Source of the DNA: an uncultured Gemmatimonadota bacterium
GTDB lineage: Bacteria; Gemmatimonadota; Gemmatimonadetes; Gemmatimonadales; Gemmatimonadaceae
Direction: 5' to 3'
Assembly: GCA_903910555.1 (NCBI GenBank)
Contig: CAIVZZ010000023.1
Coordinates: forward strand, 1-54,583
Length of the DNA: 54,583 nt
Part shown: positions 6,497-29,555 of the stretch, piece by piece
Layout: each line of letters starts with the position of its first letter
How positions within the stretch are numbered: position 1 is the first letter of the stretch
Notes under the pieces: model-generated
The model's input: only the letters and a program-made list of their open reading frames with translations
The model's database searches: none
Told to the model about the DNA's origin: nothing
Made by a program: the position numbers and the translations under genes

Positions 6497-7897
6497 ATGC
6501 AAATGAACGGAATAGCCATTTCACATCGACGCGTACGAGCCATCGTCTCGACGGGCTTGGTGGCACTCGCGCCCGCTGTGACCGCAGCCGTTCCGGCACA
6601 TGCGTTCGCCGGCTCCCCCACAGCGCACACTGCGGGCGACACGATTCAGGGAATCGTGTTCGACAGTCTGCTTCACCAGCCGATCCCGAACGCCACCGTT
6701 CAGGCAGATGCCGGTGCAGTCACGACGATGACCGACCGCGAAGGCCGCTTCACGCTGATCTCGCCGACGCCCATCCACCGCGTCACGGTTTTTCACGATT
6801 TTCTGGATCGCAGCGGGCTGGGAAGTCTCCAAGCCGACGTGACGGAGAAAACCTCGCGATCGATGATGATTCTGTCGACGCCGTCAATCGCCACAATCTG
6901 GGCGCGACTGTGCCCCGGCAAGGATCTCGTAAAAGGACGCGGCGGAATCGTGTACGGAACGGTCCGCGCGGCCGACGGAAAAACGCGGCTCTCCGGCGCA
7001 CAGGTCCGCATCAGCTGGGATTTCAACGCGATCGGCGCAACGGGCGCTGCCGCGCGCACGTCGGATTCGAAATCTGATTCGACGGGCACTTACTACGCGT
7101 GCGGGACGCCTCCGAACGTCAACGTTTACGTGCTCGGCTACTCCTCGACGCTCCGCTCAGGCGCACTCACCGTGCCCGGCGACACACTGCCGATGCGCCG
7201 CGTCGATCTGGTGCTCGGCGAGTTCGGAAAAACGGCAACGATCCACGGCGTGGTGCGCGGGCCGACGCAGAATCCGATTTCCGGAGCAAGTGTCGATTTG
7301 ATCGGAACCGACGCGACGGCAAAAACGGACGCGAACGGCCGCTTCACGCTGACGCTCGCGCCCACGGGATCGCGCACGATCGAGGTCAGGACGATCGGAT
7401 TCGCACCGCTCTTTCAGCCGATCGCCGTCCTCGAGAACCAGAACGACGAGGTCCCGGTCACGATGCTTGCGACGGCGCTCCCCGGCGTGAACGTCACGGG
7501 GAAGCAGAACGTGTCGCTGCTTCAGCTCGACTTCGAACAGCGCAAACGCGAAGGATTCGGCACGTTCAAAGACTCGACGGAGATCGTGAAACACACATCG
7601 ATCCGTTCGGTCTTTCAGGGAATTCCGTCGCTCGTCATCACGGGTATCGACGCGACGTCGTTCGCGCTGTTCACGCCGACGATGTCGATCACGAACAATC
7701 CCGTGGGCGGCTGCCCGGCGAACATTTACATCGACGGTAAGCCTTCAGACACCGGCGTACTCATCTCGCTGGCGAAAGAACAGATCGCCGCGATCGAGGT
7801 GTACATCCGCCAGGAGTTTGCGCCCGCGCAGTATCTGATGCTCGGCAACAATTGCGGCGTGGTGCTCGTCTGGACGAAGCTGCAGTTCAAGCGCTGA
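6497..7897 (+). CDS. Secreted protein with carboxypeptidase-regulatory-like domains and a plug-like C-terminus
   Basis: A 466-residue exported protein with an N-terminal signal peptide (residues about 10-35; the start may be ATG 6497 or 6503). It carries two clear beta-sandwich modules and one weaker one of the CarboxypepD_reg type: IQGIVFDSLLHQPIPNATV...DREGRFTL, VYGTVRAADGKTRLSGAQV...STGTYYACG and IHGVVRGPTQNPISGASV...DANGRFTL. The C-terminal 100 residues (GCPANIYIDGKP, then AAIEVYIRQEFAPAQY) resemble the plug segment seen in TonB-dependent receptors, but no beta-barrel follows. It may be a surface or outer-membrane-associated adaptor; the ligand is unknown. Confidence 0.8.
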   Translation: MQMNGIAISHRRVRAIVSTGLVALAPAVTAAVPAHAFAGSPTAHTAGDTIQGIVFDSLLHQPIPNATVQADAGAVTTMTDREGRFTLISPTPIHRVTVFHDFLDRSGLGSLQADVTEKTSRSMMILSTPSIATIWARLCPGKDLVKGRGGIVYGTVRAADGKTRLSGAQVRISWDFNAIGATGAAARTSDSKSDSTGTYYACGTPPNVNVYVLGYSSTLRSGALTVPGDTLPMRRVDLVLGEFGKTATIHGVVRGPTQNPISGASVDLIGTDATAKTDANGRFTLTLAPTGSRTIEVRTIGFAPLFQPIAVLENQNDEVPVTMLATALPGVNVTGKQNVSLLQLDFEQRKREGFGTFKDSTEIVKHTSIRSVFQGIPSLVITGIDATSFALFTPTMSITNNPVGGCPANIYIDGKPSDTGVLISLAKEQIAAIEVYIRQEFAPAQYLMLGNNCGVVLVWTKLQFKR

Positions 7898-7918
7898 CAC
7901 GCGCGGGCCGCTGCGCGC

Positions 7919-8935
7919 CTACTCCACGCGCCGCTGGCGAAGTCCGAGATTGATGATGCGCTGCAGCAGTTCCGGATACGCCACGCCACCGGCTTTTGCC
8001 GCCGATGCGAATTCTTCGCGCTGCGCGATTTCCGGATTGGGATTGGCCTCGAGGAAATAAAAGTTTCCGTCGCCGCCGAGCCGGAAATCGATGCGCGCGT
8101 AGCCGCTTAGTTCGAGAATCTTGTAGATACGCTTGCTGACGTGCTCAAGAAACACCTTCTGTTCCGGTGTGAGCTCGGCTGCGCGAATGTCGATGCCGTG
8201 CCGCGCTTGATACTCGATATCGTGCTTCACTTTCGCCGTCGCGATCAGCGGCGCGTTGTCGGCGAGTTTCTCCGCGACAAGTTCCCATGCGGGGAACGCC
8301 ACGAGCCGCTCGTTGCCCATCACGCTCACGTAGAGTTCGCGCCCTTCGATGAATTGTTCGGCGATCGCGTCGGTGCCAACGCGCTCGTGAATGAAACGCA
8401 CCCGCTCGGCGAGTTTCTCATCGGAATCCACCACGGACGCCTGCGCGATTCCCACCGACGCGTGCTCGATGAGCGATTTCACGATCAGCGGAAAGGCGAG
8501 ACGCGGCGGCCGCTTCACCTTGCGGCCCATTGGAAACACCGCGAAATCCGGAACGCGAATGCGGTGGTACAGCAGCAGCTTCTTTGACAGCGCCTTGCCG
8601 CGCGAGATGATCATGCCGCGCGGATTGCATCCGGTGTACGGCACCTTGAGCAGCTCGAGAAAGCTCACGACGTTCTGGTCGAACAGCACCTCACCATGAA
8701 ATTCTTCGAGCAGGTTGAACACCGTGTGCGGCTTCCAGTCCTCGACGGCGTCGCGGATCGGGAGCAGTTCATACTGCACGCCGAGTACGCGCACCTCGTG
8801 GCCAATCGCGCGAAGGTGACTGACGACGTCGTATTCGGTTTTCCATACGTTGATCTCTTCTTCCGTGTGCCCTTCGAGCGAGTCGGGCGGCACGAGCTGC
8901 GGATGCATCAACGCGAGGATTCGAAGTTTCTTCAT
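7919..8935 (-). CDS. ATP-grasp ligase, D-alanine-D-alanine ligase-like
   Basis: 338 residues. The N-terminal half has a pre-ATP-grasp fold with HTVFNLLEEFHGE. The ATP-grasp core includes SKKLLLYHRIRVP, FPLIVKSLIEHASVGI, IAEQFIEGRELYVSVMG, YARIDFRLGGDGNFYFLEANPNPEI. The last holds the acidic metal ligands. D-Ala-D-Ala ligases have this arrangement, but the segments that fix D-Ala specificity are not evident and the protein is not near murein genes. It probably joins a carboxylate to an amine using ATP. Its start overlaps the upstream metallopeptidase stop by four bases (ATGA), so the two are translationally coupled. Confidence 0.82.
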   Translation of the reverse strand: MKKLRILALMHPQLVPPDSLEGHTEEEINVWKTEYDVVSHLRAIGHEVRVLGVQYELLPIRDAVEDWKPHTVFNLLEEFHGEVLFDQNVVSFLELLKVPYTGCNPRGMIISRGKALSKKLLLYHRIRVPDFAVFPMGRKVKRPPRLAFPLIVKSLIEHASVGIAQASVVDSDEKLAERVRFIHERVGTDAIAEQFIEGRELYVSVMGNERLVAFPAWELVAEKLADNAPLIATAKVKHDIEYQARHGIDIRAAELTPEQKVFLEHVSKRIYKILELSGYARIDFRLGGDGNFYFLEANPNPEIAQREEFASAAKAGGVAYPELLQRIINLGLRQRRVE

Positions 8936-9969
8936 ACGGCGATCCAGTCACGGCGCCCGTGCTGCGCGATGAACTCCATTGTGCGCGCGGTGAGGAGGAC
9001 CATAAAGTCGGTGAGCAGCTGACGTTCGCTGCCGCCGACGCGAAGCTTGAGTTCGCGGCAGCGACCAATCATGTCACCGAGCACCGTGTCGAGCGTGAAC
9101 TGGTATTCGCCCGTCCATTTCGAGACGACGCGGCGGATATCGGTGCGATGACGGCGAAGAAAGCTGGCCGCAGATTCGTGCGTGCGATGGCGTTTCGCGA
9201 GCGAAAAGAGTCGAAGCAAATCTTCATCGTACGTGTCGGGATACTCCACGGAATACAGTGCGCGCCGATAGGTATAGTGCTCGAACAGCGTGCGCGACAC
9301 AGTGCGCAGCGGGTCCATGCGAACCTTGCTGCGAACGACGGGCGAGGTACCGGCAAGCTCCTTCATGAGCTTGTCTACGTACTGCAGCTTTTTTAGCGCG
9401 GGCCAGCCAGCGTAGCGCCGCCGCCAATCCGAGCGCGGCCGCAGCCAGACGGCGAAGGTCTCCGCGAAATCTTCATCCGGATGGCTCTGTGCGTACCAGC
9501 GCCGGAGATGCTGGACGTATTTCTTGCTCGCCGGATTCGGACGATACGACTCGGGATATTTCGTCGACGATTTTCCGAAGAGCTTCTGCCATTCGCGACG
9601 GCGATGGAGCTGGTAGCCATGCTGCACGGCATGCCCGCACTCGTGCCGCATGATCTGCATGCACTCGGCGTGCGTACCGCCCTCCACCTCGAGCAGCTGA
9701 CTGCGCTCGAGACGCATAAGGCGCGGATGCGCGAGATAAAACGGAATTGCAAACCCGGGCACGTTGCCGGGTGAGAACCACTCGTCGGAGAGCCAGATGT
9801 GCGGACGAAGCCGAATGTGCTTCTGCTCGAGCTCCGTATAGAGCTCGATCACGCAGTCCTCAAGCCACGTGCCTTCGATGGTCACGCCGAGATCGCGCAG
9901 ACGGAGCTGCATCAATCGTTCGGCGGACCAGCTGGACCAGGGAAGACGGCGAAAGCGCGTAGGCGGCAT
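8932..9969 (-). CDS. Putative zinc-binding metallopeptidase (HExxH)
   Basis: 345 residues, with no signal peptide. The zinc motif HECGHAVQHG lies near residue 107, and a downstream glutamate-bearing helix DEDFAETFAVWL near residue 160 fits the third ligand of gluzincin-like families. The C-terminal half is Arg-rich and helical. It is the first gene of a two-gene operon with the ATP-grasp gene. A peptidase coupled to a peptide-forming enzyme suggests joint modification or turnover of one peptide-like substrate, but the sequence does not name it. Confidence 0.78.
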   Translation of the reverse strand: MPPTRFRRLPWSSWSAERLMQLRLRDLGVTIEGTWLEDCVIELYTELEQKHIRLRPHIWLSDEWFSPGNVPGFAIPFYLAHPRLMRLERSQLLEVEGGTHAECMQIMRHECGHAVQHGYQLHRRREWQKLFGKSSTKYPESYRPNPASKKYVQHLRRWYAQSHPDEDFAETFAVWLRPRSDWRRRYAGWPALKKLQYVDKLMKELAGTSPVVRSKVRMDPLRTVSRTLFEHYTYRRALYSVEYPDTYDEDLLRLFSLAKRHRTHESAASFLRRHRTDIRRVVSKWTGEYQFTLDTVLGDMIGRCRELKLRVGGSERQLLTDFMVLLTARTMEFIAQHGRRDWIAV

Positions 9970-24664: not shown

Positions 24665-25882
24665 ATGAGCGGACGCCCCACGCGCACAAAATCCCACCCT
24701 ATCACAGCCGCACCGGCGCCTCCGCCGCCGCCCGCGCTGCCGCCGGGCGGTGGCCCGTCGTTCTCGCGCGCGCTGTGGCGGATGACTTCGGCCGATGTCT
24801 CCGAGGGCAATCACGTCACGCTCTTTTCTGACGGCGCCACGACGTTCGATGCGATGATCGAACTCATCGACAATGCGAAGGAAACGGTCGCGCTCGAGAG
24901 TTACATCTTGAAGTCGGATACCGTCGGTTCGCGGTTCGCCGACGCCATGACGCGCGCCGCGAAGCGCGGTGTGCACGTGCAGCTCATTGCCGACTGGTTC
25001 GGCATGCGCGGAATTAAATCCGCCTATCTCCGCGACCTGCGCCGCGACGGTGTGGACGTTCGCGTTTTCAATCCGGTGGGATTCCATCCGTGGTTCGGCG
25101 GCTTTCCGCGCGACCATCGCAAACTGCTTGTTGCAGATTCCGCCGCCGGGATCACCGGCGGCATCGGCATCGGCGATGAATGGCAGGGCGGAATTCTCCG
25201 CAAGCGGCGGCTCGCGTGGCGCGACACCTGCGTCCGTATTGCGGGACCTGCGGCGAAGGATCTCATGGACGCGTTCGGCCGCATGTGGCAGCGTGCCGGC
25301 GGCGAGCGACCGCCGCGATCCGAGCGGAAGCTCACGCGCGCATCGCGCGGAGCCGATATCGACCCGGCCATATGCGCTCCGTCAGTCGTCGGCGTCGTGG
25401 AAGGCGATCCGTGGCGCGTCCGCGTCGGCCGCGCGCTGCACTTGCAAGCGGCCGCGGCGCAGCGCTCCATCTGGGTCGCGAGCGCGTACTTCGTTCCGTC
25501 GTTCGCCGAGGTCGAATCGCTGAATGGCGCGGCACGCGACGGTGTTGACGTGCGTCTCCTGGTGCCGGCGAAGTACGATCACCCGTGGGTACACTGGCTC
25601 ACGATGCGGTCGTACAAAAAACTGCTGCGGAACGGCGTGCGAATCTGGGAATGGCGCGGCGAGATGATGCACGCCAAGACCGCCGTTGTCGACGGGCGGT
25701 GGACCCGCGTCGGTTCAACCGACTTCAATCCGCTCGGCATCGCAATCAACTACGAACTCGACGCGATTATCGAAGATCCAACAATCGGCGCCGAAGCCGA
25801 AGCGATGTTTGAGAACGACCTTAAACGCTCGAAGGAGATCCGGCTACGCGGGCGCACTGCGCGAGCACCGAAGCGCCGATGA
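24665..25882 (+). CDS. Phospholipase D family protein, cardiolipin synthase-like
   Basis: About 405 residues from ATG 24665; a GTG at 24599 is an alternative. A Pro-rich N-terminus leads into two HKD domains. The first motif is DHRKLLVAD near residue 150, followed by AGITGGIGIGDEW. The second is MMHAKTAVVDGRWTRVGSTDFNPLG near 335. The ESYILKSDTVG entry strand is typical of the cardiolipin synthase/PLD branch. No transmembrane pair is seen at the N-terminus, unlike E. coli ClsA. It probably forms or cleaves phosphodiesters of phospholipids. Its 3' end overlaps the convergent M20 gene by 62 bases. Confidence 0.88.
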   Translation: MSGRPTRTKSHPITAAPAPPPPPALPPGGGPSFSRALWRMTSADVSEGNHVTLFSDGATTFDAMIELIDNAKETVALESYILKSDTVGSRFADAMTRAAKRGVHVQLIADWFGMRGIKSAYLRDLRRDGVDVRVFNPVGFHPWFGGFPRDHRKLLVADSAAGITGGIGIGDEWQGGILRKRRLAWRDTCVRIAGPAAKDLMDAFGRMWQRAGGERPPRSERKLTRASRGADIDPAICAPSVVGVVEGDPWRVRVGRALHLQAAAAQRSIWVASAYFVPSFAEVESLNGAARDGVDVRLLVPAKYDHPWVHWLTMRSYKKLLRNGVRIWEWRGEMMHAKTAVVDGRWTRVGSTDFNPLGIAINYELDAIIEDPTIGAEAEAMFENDLKRSKEIRLRGRTARAPKRR

Positions 25883-26996
25883 ACAGCGCGTCTTCAGCCG
25901 GATAAAACCGCGGCGTGTGCGCGGCGCGGTGCTCGCCGCCTGCTTCCCGTGCGCCGACGCGCAGAAAGCACCCCGGGATTTTCTCCAGATAAAACGCGAA
26001 ATCCTCGCCGCCCATGTTGGTCGTTCCCAGCGGCACCAGCGCGCGCTCACCAAGCACATCACGCACGGCCTGCGCCGCCCACGCGGCGCCATCAGGAGAG
26101 TTCACGACCGCCGGCGTGCCGTCGGAGATGAGCACTTCGGCGGTGAGCCCGTGCGTGCCGGCAACGGCGTGTGTTATTCGCTGCAACTCGCCCACCAGCA
26201 GCGCGCGCGACACCGCGGTCGTCGCGCGAATCGTGCCCATCAGTTCCGCACTCTCGGGAATGATGTTCGACGCGCTTCCGGCGTGTATGACGCCGACCGT
26301 CACCACTCCCGGCAGCGCCGGGTCGAGGCGGCGCGAGACGATCGTTTGCAGCGAGCCGATCAGCTCCGCCGCGCCGACGATGGGATCCCGCGCCTCCTGA
26401 GGACGCGCACCGTGCGCACCCTCACCGGTGAGCACGATGTGAAACGTGTCGACCGACGCGGCAACGGGGCCAGCCTGCGCGACGACTTCACCAACGGCAA
26501 ATCTGCGGTCCACGTGCGCGCCGAATATCGCGCGCACACCATCGAGCACGCCGCTCGCAAGAACTTCGCGCGCGCCCTCGCCGACTTCTTCTGCAGGCTG
26601 CAGCACGACGAGTACATCACCGGCCGCGGGTGCGCGCGAGAGCAGAAGCGCCGCGCCAACCGCCCACGACGCGTGCACGTCGTGGCCGCACGCATGCATG
26701 ACTCCGTCAGTCGCCGAAGAAAAGTCGAGACCGGTCGCCTCGGTGATTGGGAGCGCGTCTATATCTCCGCGCAGCGCAATCACCGGTGCACCCGCGTCGC
26801 GTCCGCGTATCCGCGCGACGAGTCCCGTACGCGCGATGCGGCGAACATCAATAATTCCCGAGTAGCGCAAGACACGTTCGAGCCGCTCTTGCGTGCGCGT
26901 TTCATTCCACGAAAGCTCCGGATGGCGGTGCAAATCGCGCCGCAGCTCCGTGAGCAAACGATGATCGTCGGCGGTGAACCCGAGCGGCGCCGTCAT
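25821..26996 (-). CDS. M20 family amidohydrolase (candidate N-succinyl-L-amino-acid hydrolase)
   Basis: 391 residues from ATG 26996, which overlaps the racemase stop as ATGA. Motifs are RRDLHRHPELSWNE, GDIDALPI, MHACGHDVHASW (metal-binding His/Asp, near residue 100) and QPAEEVGEGA, with NMGGEDFAFYL near the C-terminus. This is the two-domain M20D type that removes acyl groups from N-acyl amino acids. A frame open beyond 26996 runs into the racemase gene and is not used. As third gene of the GNAT-racemase-hydrolase operon it is the natural candidate to release the free L-amino acid from its N-succinyl form. Confidence 0.88.
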   Translation of the reverse strand: MTAPLGFTADDHRLLTELRRDLHRHPELSWNETRTQERLERVLRYSGIIDVRRIARTGLVARIRGRDAGAPVIALRGDIDALPITEATGLDFSSATDGVMHACGHDVHASWAVGAALLLSRAPAAGDVLVVLQPAEEVGEGAREVLASGVLDGVRAIFGAHVDRRFAVGEVVAQAGPVAASVDTFHIVLTGEGAHGARPQEARDPIVGAAELIGSLQTIVSRRLDPALPGVVTVGVIHAGSASNIIPESAELMGTIRATTAVSRALLVGELQRITHAVAGTHGLTAEVLISDGTPAVVNSPDGAAWAAQAVRDVLGERALVPLGTTNMGGEDFAFYLEKIPGCFLRVGAREAGGEHRAAHTPRFYPAEDALFIGASVLAQCARVAGSPSSV

Positions 26997-28111
26997 GGTT
27001 TCAGTTCCACGCTTCGCACCGTGATCGCTGCGATGCGGTCGATGTCGATTTCCACGCCGATCCCCGGCCTGTCCAGCGGCACTTTCACCATGCCGCGGTC
27101 CATCGTCCACTCCGGCGAAACGATGTCGCGCGCCCAGTAGCGTGCGCTCGGGCTTACATCGCCAGGGAGCGTGAAGTTCGGCAGCGAAGCGATCGCCACA
27201 TTGTATGCGCGGCCGATCCCACTCTCCAGCATTCCGCCGCACCATACCGGAACGCTGTGCTGCTGACAGAAATCGTGGATCGCGATCGATGGAGTGAACC
27301 CGCCGACCCGCCCCGCTTTGATATTGATGATCCGGCCGCTGCCGAGCGCGACCATGTCCTGCGCCTGATCGAGGCCGGTGATCGATTCGTCGAGGCAGAT
27401 CGGCGTCTTAAGCCGCTTCTGCAGTGTGGCGTGTCGCACGATGTCATCGTGTGCGAGCGGCTGTTCGATCATCATCAGTCCAAAATCGTCGAGCGCGACG
27501 AGCCGGTCGATATCGTCGAGCGTGTACGCGTTGTTCGCATCGGCCATGAGGTGCGCGCCGGGGCCGAGCGCCTCGCGGACCGCCCGGATCCACTCGACGT
27601 CATGTCCCGGGCCGATCTTAATTTTCACTTTGCGATAGCCGGCGTCGAGTGCGGCACGCGCTTTCTCGATCAACACCGCCGGACTCGCCTGAATTCCGAG
27701 CGAGATTCCTGTCGCGATCTCCTTTCGCGTTCCGCCTATGAATCGCGCGAGGGGCTCGCCGGCGAGGGTCGCGCCGAGCGCCCACATTCCCATCTCAACT
27801 GACGCCTTTGCCATGTTGTGCCCGCGAACATCGCGATCGAGCACCGCATGTATCTCGCCGGGGTGCGCGAATGTTTTGCCGAGCACCCGTGGAGCGACGT
27901 ACTGCGTCACCGCGATCCACGCCGTGTCGATCGTTTCGCTCGAATAGTTCGGCGCCTCGCTGGCGACGCACTCGCTCCAGACGCTCGCACCCGATGCGTC
28001 GTGCAGTTCGAGGAGCATGATCCGGCGCTGGAACATTTCACCAGACGAAATGCGAAACGGCTCCTTAAGCGCCAGTCCAACTTCGCGAAGGACAATCCGG
28101 TCGACGCGCAT
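26993..28111 (-). CDS. Enolase-superfamily N-succinylamino-acid racemase / o-succinylbenzoate synthase
   Basis: 372 residues of the muconate-lactonizing-enzyme type. The catalytic KxK is in YRKVKIKIG near residue 164. Metal ligands are in LMADANNAY, MMIEQPL and ICLDESI, and the second catalytic Lys is in INIKAGRVGG. It ends with SPEWTMDRGMVKVPLDRPGIGVEID. The family contains both MenC (menaquinone synthesis) and N-succinylamino-acid racemase. No other men gene is in view, while a GNAT lies upstream and an M20 hydrolase downstream, which favours racemase. The ATG directly abuts the GNAT stop, and the stop overlaps the M20 start. Confidence 0.9.
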   Translation of the reverse strand: MRVDRIVLREVGLALKEPFRISSGEMFQRRIMLLELHDASGASVWSECVASEAPNYSSETIDTAWIAVTQYVAPRVLGKTFAHPGEIHAVLDRDVRGHNMAKASVEMGMWALGATLAGEPLARFIGGTRKEIATGISLGIQASPAVLIEKARAALDAGYRKVKIKIGPGHDVEWIRAVREALGPGAHLMADANNAYTLDDIDRLVALDDFGLMMIEQPLAHDDIVRHATLQKRLKTPICLDESITGLDQAQDMVALGSGRIINIKAGRVGGFTPSIAIHDFCQQHSVPVWCGGMLESGIGRAYNVAIASLPNFTLPGDVSPSARYWARDIVSPEWTMDRGMVKVPLDRPGIGVEIDIDRIAAITVRSVELKP

Positions 28112-28933
28112 CTATTTGCTCGTGTGCTTCCGGGTGAGAACGTACGCGGCGTCACCGGTGCCGTCGAAGACGAAATCGGTCACGCGATATCCGAGCGGGA
28201 AATAATGCAGAAACGCGCGGCGCGCCGACATCCGCCACGAGCGCGCGAGCGCGATGTCTTCGTCGAGCAGCGCGCGATAGTCCCCGGGAATGTGCACCAC
28301 CACCGTTGAGTCATCCGGAAGCGTCACGTCTGGCGGCGCACCGTGCGACGCCCGTCCGGCGACAACCAGTGCATGCGCGGGCGCCTTCGAGTCGTCGGGC
28401 ATTACCGCCGGTTTGGTGCTCACGGGCCACGAAACGATAAATCGATCGGTTCCGAGCGCATGCTCGGGGCTCTTTGTGTCCGCGCCGTACATGTTGGGTA
28501 CGAACTCTTCGACCGCCGCGCCGAGCCGGCAGAAGTTGAGCCGCGCATTACGGGCGACGAACGGATCGAACGTCCAGAACATCGTCTCTACGCCGAGCTC
28601 AACACAGCGGTCGCGCTGGTACGTTTTCAGCGCGCGCCCGATCTGCCGTCGCTGAGCGTCGGCGCGCACCGCGAGCATGTCCGACCAGTGAACAATGCTT
28701 CCATCGCGAAACCCAGTGAGGCCGAACACGAAGCCGAGCAACTGCCCGTCTGGCGAGAATGCACCGGCTGAGACGCCACCTATTTCACTGCCTACCAACA
28801 GAATCGCCGACGGAACGCGCTCCGTGAATCCGGCGCCCCAGGTGTCGTCTTGAAGACGCACCGCCGCGACGCGCTCGTCATGAGAGGCGAGCTCGCGGAT
28901 GACGATTCCGTCGGCGAGGGTTACGTTCTTCAT
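28112..28933 (-). CDS. GNAT-like acyltransferase (COG3375-type; candidate N-succinyltransferase)
   Basis: 273 residues. The N-terminal GNAT core has VIRELASHDERVAAVRLQDDTWG, GVSAGAFSPDGQLLGFVFGLTG, VHWSDMLAVRADAQRRQIGRAL and FWTFDPFVARNARLNFCRLGA. The last is distinctive of the predicted acyltransferases found beside N-succinylamino-acid racemases. It likely moves a succinyl (or similar) group from CoA to a D-amino acid. It is the first gene of the three-gene operon. Its ATG is only one base from that of the divergent PAP2 gene, so the true start may be slightly downstream. Confidence 0.8.
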   Translation of the reverse strand: MKNVTLADGIVIRELASHDERVAAVRLQDDTWGAGFTERVPSAILLVGSEIGGVSAGAFSPDGQLLGFVFGLTGFRDGSIVHWSDMLAVRADAQRRQIGRALKTYQRDRCVELGVETMFWTFDPFVARNARLNFCRLGAAVEEFVPNMYGADTKSPEHALGTDRFIVSWPVSTKPAVMPDDSKAPAHALVVAGRASHGAPPDVTLPDDSTVVVHIPGDYRALLDEDIALARSWRMSARRAFLHYFPLGYRVTDFVFDGTGDAAYVLTRKHTSK

Positions 28934-28934
28934 T

Positions 28935-29555
28935 ATGAGTTCAATTTACGACGTCGACCGTGCGATTGCGTCGGCGCTGCAAAGTCTCCCGTTCCAGCAG
29001 GATCACACGCTGCACTCGATCAGCGTGGTGTTCAATTGGTGGGGCGGCCCCGGCGTCATCTGGTTCGCCGCAGCTCTCTGGCTCGGCGGACGCGCGCTCA
29101 AACATGCACCGCTCGCACAGCTTGGCTTGCGCGGCCTCGAAGCGATCGCGGTCGCGAGCGCGATCAGCGGGATTGTGAAAGGATTCGCCGGCCGCGCACG
29201 TCCCTTCGTCGCGCCCGACGAGCCGGGAAACTGGAATTTTCTGCATGGCTGGACTGACGCGCGCTATTTCTCGATGCCGTCCGGTCACACGACCGCGACC
29301 GTCGCGTTCGCCGCGGCAATCAGCGTTGCGTCCGTTCGCTGGGCTCCGTCGCAACGTATCGCGATGATCGTCGGGGGATTCGCCGCCGCGTTTCTCGTCG
29401 CTTTTGCGCGCCTCTACAGCAATCAGCACTGGTTCAGCGACGTCATCACCGGTGTGTTGCTCGGCCTCATCACAGGACTGCTGCTCACGCGCTGGCATGT
29501 GAGTCATCCGCGCACGGCATTCGATCGCGCACTGCTCGGCGCACCGGCAGAATGA
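28935..29555 (+). CDS. PAP2 family membrane phosphatase (first of two)
   Basis: 206 residues from ATG 28935, with about five membrane helices. The three PAP2 catalytic motifs are KGFAGRARP, MPSGHTTATV and RLYSNQHWFSDV. They fit lipid or polyprenyl phosphate phosphatases such as undecaprenyl-pyrophosphate phosphatase PgpB. The frame is open upstream into the GNAT gene, but that part is antisense to coding DNA. Its stop overlaps the next PAP2 start as ATGA. Confidence 0.87.
   Translation: MSSIYDVDRAIASALQSLPFQQDHTLHSISVVFNWWGGPGVIWFAAALWLGGRALKHAPLAQLGLRGLEAIAVASAISGIVKGFAGRARPFVAPDEPGNWNFLHGWTDARYFSMPSGHTTATVAFAAAISVASVRWAPSQRIAMIVGGFAAAFLVAFARLYSNQHWFSDVITGVLLGLITGLLLTRWHVSHPRTAFDRALLGAPAE

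Follow-up and report, generated by a model that had tools for sequence, protein, structure and literature searches.

Three tightly packed genes in a genome of the Gemmatimonadota, encoding a GNAT-type acyltransferase, an enolase-superfamily enzyme and an M20-family amidohydrolase, raise the question of whether they specify a route from D- to L-amino acids by way of N-succinyl intermediates, as the initial annotation of this DNA proposed, or whether the middle gene is menC, encoding the o-succinylbenzoate synthase of classical menaquinone synthesis. In the window, that is, the whole stretch of 54,583 nucleotides that was analysed, the three minus-strand ORFs are confirmed at the coordinates given in Table 1, and the window sequence bears out the earlier description of their packing, with junctions of 0 and 4 bases. 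For the M20 gene, the internal ATG at 26996 is preferred as the start over that of the longer, mechanically called ORF. Because of these junctions, the GNAT, racemase and M20 genes very probably form one transcription unit. A promoter scan returned a single site, positioned inside the middle gene and not above chance expectation.

Table 1. Features of the three-gene locus (window coordinates)
Feature	Coordinates	Strand	Length	Basis
GNAT-fold N-acyltransferase, putative succinyl-CoA (or acetyl-CoA):D-amino acid N-acyltransferase	28112..28933	-	273 aa	ORF, fold, motif, co-occurrence
GNAT core, acyltransferase residues 8-174	28412..28912	-		VIA-align and Foldseek matches
Acyltransferase C-terminal extension, residues 184-273	28115..28384	-		family-conserved in alignment
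N-succinylamino acid racemase (NSAR/OSBS-type enolase-superfamily enzyme)	26993..28111	-	372 aa	TIGR01928, PDB match, catalytic residues
M20 family amidohydrolase, putative N-succinyl-L-amino acid hydrolase	25821..26996	-	391 aa	TIGR01891, YxeP, conserved residues, co-gain/loss with the pair
Junction, GNAT stop TAG then NSAR ATG	28109..28114	-	0 bp	sequence
ATGA overlap, NSAR stop / M20 start	26993..26996	-	4 bp	sequence

The GNAT gene and a divergent PAP2 phosphatase gene (window 28899-28937) have start codons only one base apart, at 28933 on the minus strand and 28935 on the plus strand, and both promoters must therefore overlap coding sequence. At the other end, 62 bp (window 25821-25882) are shared between the M20 gene and the end of a convergent ORF for a PLD-domain, cardiolipin synthase-like protein. 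Elsewhere on the minus strand, a gene for a D-Ala-D-Ala ligase-like ATP-grasp protein shares a 4-bp overlap with one for a putative zinc metallopeptidase (Peptidase_Mx), at window 7919-9969.

The first protein scores 19.1 bits against Pfam Acetyltransf_1, just under the gathering score of 20.7, and no NCBIfam model matches it at E <= 0.1. Its AlphaFold2 model (pLDDT 92.8), however, has a clear GNAT fold: residues 8-174 match GNAT structures in Foldseek (E 6e-8) and in VIA-align (Z up to 16.6, rmsd 1.8 over 151 residues). The acyl-CoA motif R-x-x-G-x-A is present at residues 96-101, with G99 invariant. The C-terminal extension (184-273) is conserved across the family alignment; modelled separately (pLDDT 84), it has no Foldseek match at E <= 0.001, a result that does not indicate a new fold.

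Against TIGR01928, a model named o-succinylbenzoate synthase (cut-off 200.65), the middle protein reaches 324.6 bits, and it is far under the cut-offs of other enolase-superfamily models. The best PDB match is the Deinococcus N-acylamino acid racemase 2ggg (304.5 bits), with the Amycolatopsis NSAR/OSBS at 293.9 bits. The lysines of the KxK motif (K163, K165), the metal-binding acids (D191, E216, D241) and the second lysine (K265) are all present. In addition, R268 aligns with R266 of the Amycolatopsis enzyme, reportedly a second-shell arginine tied to NSAR/OSBS specificity (Truong 2021). The comparison of specificity residues that the initial annotation had put forward thus places the enzyme in the NSAR/OSBS class but goes no further; Arg268 does not discriminate NSAR from MenC, because every close relative has arginine at the same position, the MenC-like, Men-only relatives in genomes G016, G033 and G095 among them. 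Near residue 21, the GNAT-associated enzymes retain an ISSG motif (one has ISTG, and one has a residue unread) that all three Men-only enzymes have lost. Since the Deinococcus NSAR is also without it, the motif is a lead only.

A second group of TIGR01928 matches, scoring about 200-227 bits (loci L142, at 6881-8011, L143, L145 and L141), is found mainly in genomes of family f2, mostly Mqn genomes without the GNAT. Members carry the motif WNIKVHRVGG, and their closest solved relative is 3mwc. In the case of L142, the neighbouring genes resemble amidohydrolases and a DapA-like aldolase. A divergent relative (L144, 6929-8056, in the Men genome G050) has an arginine aligned at the second catalytic lysine, suggestive of either a misalignment or an altered function.

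The third protein is an M20 amidohydrolase by its score against TIGR01891 (337.4 bits, cut-off 153.75), and its nearest solved relative is YxeP (1ysj, 272.1 bits), presumably an N-acetyl hydrolase. Residues with a putative role in metal binding or the active site (C103, H105, E136/E137, H161 and H360) are conserved among the operon-linked M20 proteins. Identity as the succinyl-diaminopimelate desuccinylase DapE was considered and rejected (22.9 bits against TIGR01246, cut-off 361.8).

Whether the three genes belong together can be judged from their distribution across the phylum. In a tally of 121 Gemmatimonadota genomes made from hand-transcribed match lists, with the NSAR-type enzyme counted at 266 bits or more (a threshold set after a score gap, from 266 to 227, was seen), 71 genomes have both the GNAT and the enzyme and 46 have neither; the enzyme is unaccompanied in four, the GNAT in none. 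Three of the enzyme-only genomes (G016, G033 and G095) are classical-menaquinone genomes, and the enzyme of the fourth (G001) is distant, at 42% identity. No genome in this sample combines the Men and the Mqn pathway; among the 71 pair-carrying genomes, 36 are Mqn-only, 33 are Men-only and two show neither pathway. Fisher's test for co-occurrence gives a p of 4e-29, a value that is inflated as relatedness is ignored, and contrasts within genera are for this reason the better evidence. Within genera g1, g4, g7 and g19, some species carry the pair and others do not, and the M20 ortholog tracks the pair. Of the genomes sampled, 13 of the 14 with the pair have such an ortholog (60% identity or more) and none of the 16 without the pair does, and this holds even when the M20 gene lies some distance off (G019, G047) or is divergent (G054, G078); in the sole pair-positive genome without one (G111), the contig stops at the locus. 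The GNAT-NSAR-M20 arrangement recurs in most pair-carrying members of the host's family. Counting against the pathway reading, most genomes from outside the Gemmatimonadaceae-like family lack an adjacent M20 of this type.

The association extends beyond the phylum. A GNAT profile search of GTDB genomes recovered more than 580 relatives, and among the best 80 of these, from Gemmatimonadota, Acidobacteria, KSB1, Ignavibacteria and others, an NSAR-type gene adjoins or lies near the GNAT gene in 74, with 36 also having an M20 of this type. Several of the best-80 loci that lack an NSAR neighbour sit at contig ends. By the names of the organisms in which these matches occur, the window also falls within or close to the Gemmatimonadaceae. 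Geobacillus does not appear among the best 80 of the more than 580 matches. Given the 74 of 80 loci, together with the recurrence of the trio in the host's family, the clustering is not a matter of chance.

Genome content bears directly on the possibility that the middle gene is menC. In the 3.2-Mb host genome (G000, with a listed completeness of 100%), a search for men and mqn genes gave nothing over the cut-off for MenD (TIGR00173, best 51 of 244 bits), MenB (TIGR01929) or MenE (TIGR01923), although the best MenE score is close (300.3 of 330.15), unlike those for MenD and MenB. Two proteins of the MqnA/MqnD family (PF02621; 239.6 and 220.1 bits) are encoded on contigs C15 and C1, and MqnC and MqnE are over cut-off, their genes flanking the PF02621 gene on C15. 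The operon's NSAR-type gene is the one MLE-type enolase-superfamily gene in the genome. With no MenD, MenB or MenE over cut-off, o-succinylbenzoate synthesis would be left without a substrate or a sink. A MenC assignment could draw on the TIGR01928 match, since this equivalog is named for that activity, on relatives from the phylum's other families that co-occur with MenD and MenB, and on G016, of the host's own family, where the enzyme is encoded near genes for a menE-like AMP ligase and menB. In the host, however, the partners of the gene are the GNAT and M20 genes rather than men genes, and MqnA, C, D and E are present in place of the Men enzymes, so that a MenC role is contradicted and is most improbable. 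A complete menaquinone pathway short of only this menC, which the initial annotation had named as a refutation of the D- to L-amino acid reading, was looked for in the host and is not there. The initial annotation had also held that MenC could not be excluded from sequence; the content of the genome can settle the matter. Gemmatimonadales have been reported to prefer the futalosine pathway (PMC9426454), and a survey (PMC3914697, Table 1) lists one Gemmatimonadetes proteome with MenC and MqnA, C and D but without MenB. The host genome agrees with the former, and with the unexplained MenC beside Mqn genes in the latter. It represents a concrete case of a curated annotation, here o-succinylbenzoate synthase (MenC), that very probably does not hold for the organism concerned. 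An NSAR reading would explain at least a portion of the orphan 'MenC' entries that such surveys list for phyla using the futalosine pathway. The GNAT partner provides a practical marker to separate NSAR from MenC.

It is very likely that the trio carries out an irreversible conversion of D- to L-amino acids via N-succinyl intermediates, encoded as one transcription unit. This reading is based on gene order, protein families, catalytic residues, the GNAT fold, coupled presence and absence, and the missing MenC context; the route originally suggested for the acyltransferase, racemase and hydrolase is therefore supported by families, genome context and phylum-wide coupling. In the proposed scheme, the GNAT would acylate a D-amino acid with succinyl-CoA, and the enolase-superfamily enzyme would racemise the N-succinyl-amino acid by a two-lysine 1,1-proton transfer with a divalent metal, a mechanism reviewed in PMC8142540. 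The M20 hydrolase would then strip succinate from the L isomer only, and such L-only hydrolysis is proposed to pull the equilibrium towards the free L-amino acid. For the acyl group, the D-specificity of the GNAT, the L-specificity of the hydrolase and the amino acids used, we infer these features from the characterised Geobacillus pathway. PMC8762209 credits Sakai 2006 with a GNAT that makes N-succinyl- and N-acetyl-D-Phe, -Tyr and -Trp, taking acetyl-CoA as well as succinyl-CoA; these aromatic substrates give no pointer to D-Ala or D-Glu. The peptidoglycan source that the initial annotation put forward is neither backed nor contradicted.

The use of acetyl-CoA by that GNAT, as described there, also fits a version of the same chemistry based on acetyl groups, in which D-amino acid N-acetylation is followed by an N-acetylamino acid racemase and an M20 N-acetyl-L-amino acid deacetylase. 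The closest PDB relatives of the middle enzyme are named N-acylamino acid racemases, and YxeP is the closest solved structure to the M20 protein, both of which are in keeping with an acetyl route. Such a route is nonetheless unlikely, as the rate table of PMC8142540 gives several NSARs a far higher kcat/Km on N-succinyl substrates. For instance, the value for the Deinococcus NSAR on N-succinyl-phenylglycine is 371,429 per M per s, and those for N-acylamino acid racemases on N-acetyl-methionine are about 70 to 1,100 per M per s (PMC8142540). Dipeptide epimerases also belong to the enolase superfamily, and there are peptidases among the M20 enzymes, so that an L-Ala-D/L-Glu epimerase could be paired with a peptidase-like M20 in peptidoglycan recycling, with the GNAT unrelated. 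This arrangement is scarcely credible, since the middle protein is far under the cut-offs of the epimerase models (69.6 of 500 bits for NF041118 and 63.5 of 343 for NF011708) and well over that of TIGR01928, and the supposedly unrelated GNAT is found without the enzyme in 0 of 121 genomes. By its context and the genome comparisons, the trio is well supported as a new, probable occurrence of the pathway known from Geobacillus, with succinyl as the putative acyl group.

The presence of the same enzyme in Men and non-Men genomes of one phylum is the most useful by-product of the analysis. In the Men lineages examined (family f5), the genomes encode no MLE-type enolase-superfamily enzyme other than the NSAR/OSBS-type one; a second PF13378 match in these genomes has weak scores, consistent with enolase. 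The GNAT is also present in twelve of the f5 Men genomes, and one enzyme would therefore have to serve both pathways there. The Gemmatimonadota may accordingly represent a natural experiment in promiscuity, a proposal to which we give an even chance, with dual-duty enzymes in genomes that have Men and the GNAT, enzymes freed of menaquinone duty in those with Mqn and the GNAT, and MenC-only enzymes in the few Men genomes without the GNAT. If so, comparing the three groups could reveal residues constrained by bifunctionality. In a tree of the enzyme, built by a quick method and rooted on a very long branch, grouping is largely by lineage, and because of that branch and method no direction of change is drawn from it. 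At four loci of f5 Men genomes (L067, L068, L076 and L072), a gene whose product, about 410-450 aa long, is predicted by eye to be an FAD-type oxidoreductase lies between the GNAT and NSAR genes.

The system closest in logic is that of Geobacillus kaustophilus, in which, as reportedly described by Sakai et al. in 2006 (doi 10.1021/bi060230b), one operon encodes a GNAT / NSAR / L-desuccinylase pathway. The three protein classes and the proposed logic are the same here, the likeness being one of class, but the host is a futalosine-pathway member of the Gemmatimonadota, unlike the Geobacillus system. The N-acylamino acid racemase of Deinococcus radiodurans (2ggg, 1r0m) is the best solved relative of the middle enzyme, with which it shares the active-site lysines, the acids and the R266-equivalent, and Deinococcus-Thermus is likewise listed with MenC-like genes and Mqn, without MenB (PMC3914697). 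The Amycolatopsis NSAR/OSBS (1sja, 4a6g) falls in the same subfamily, and its PDB names span both activities; it is bifunctional by that naming, whereas an OSBS role of the host enzyme has no genomic context. In the case of the hydrolase, the closest solved relative is YxeP, and the substrates of the host M20 are likely to be N-succinyl-L-amino acids.
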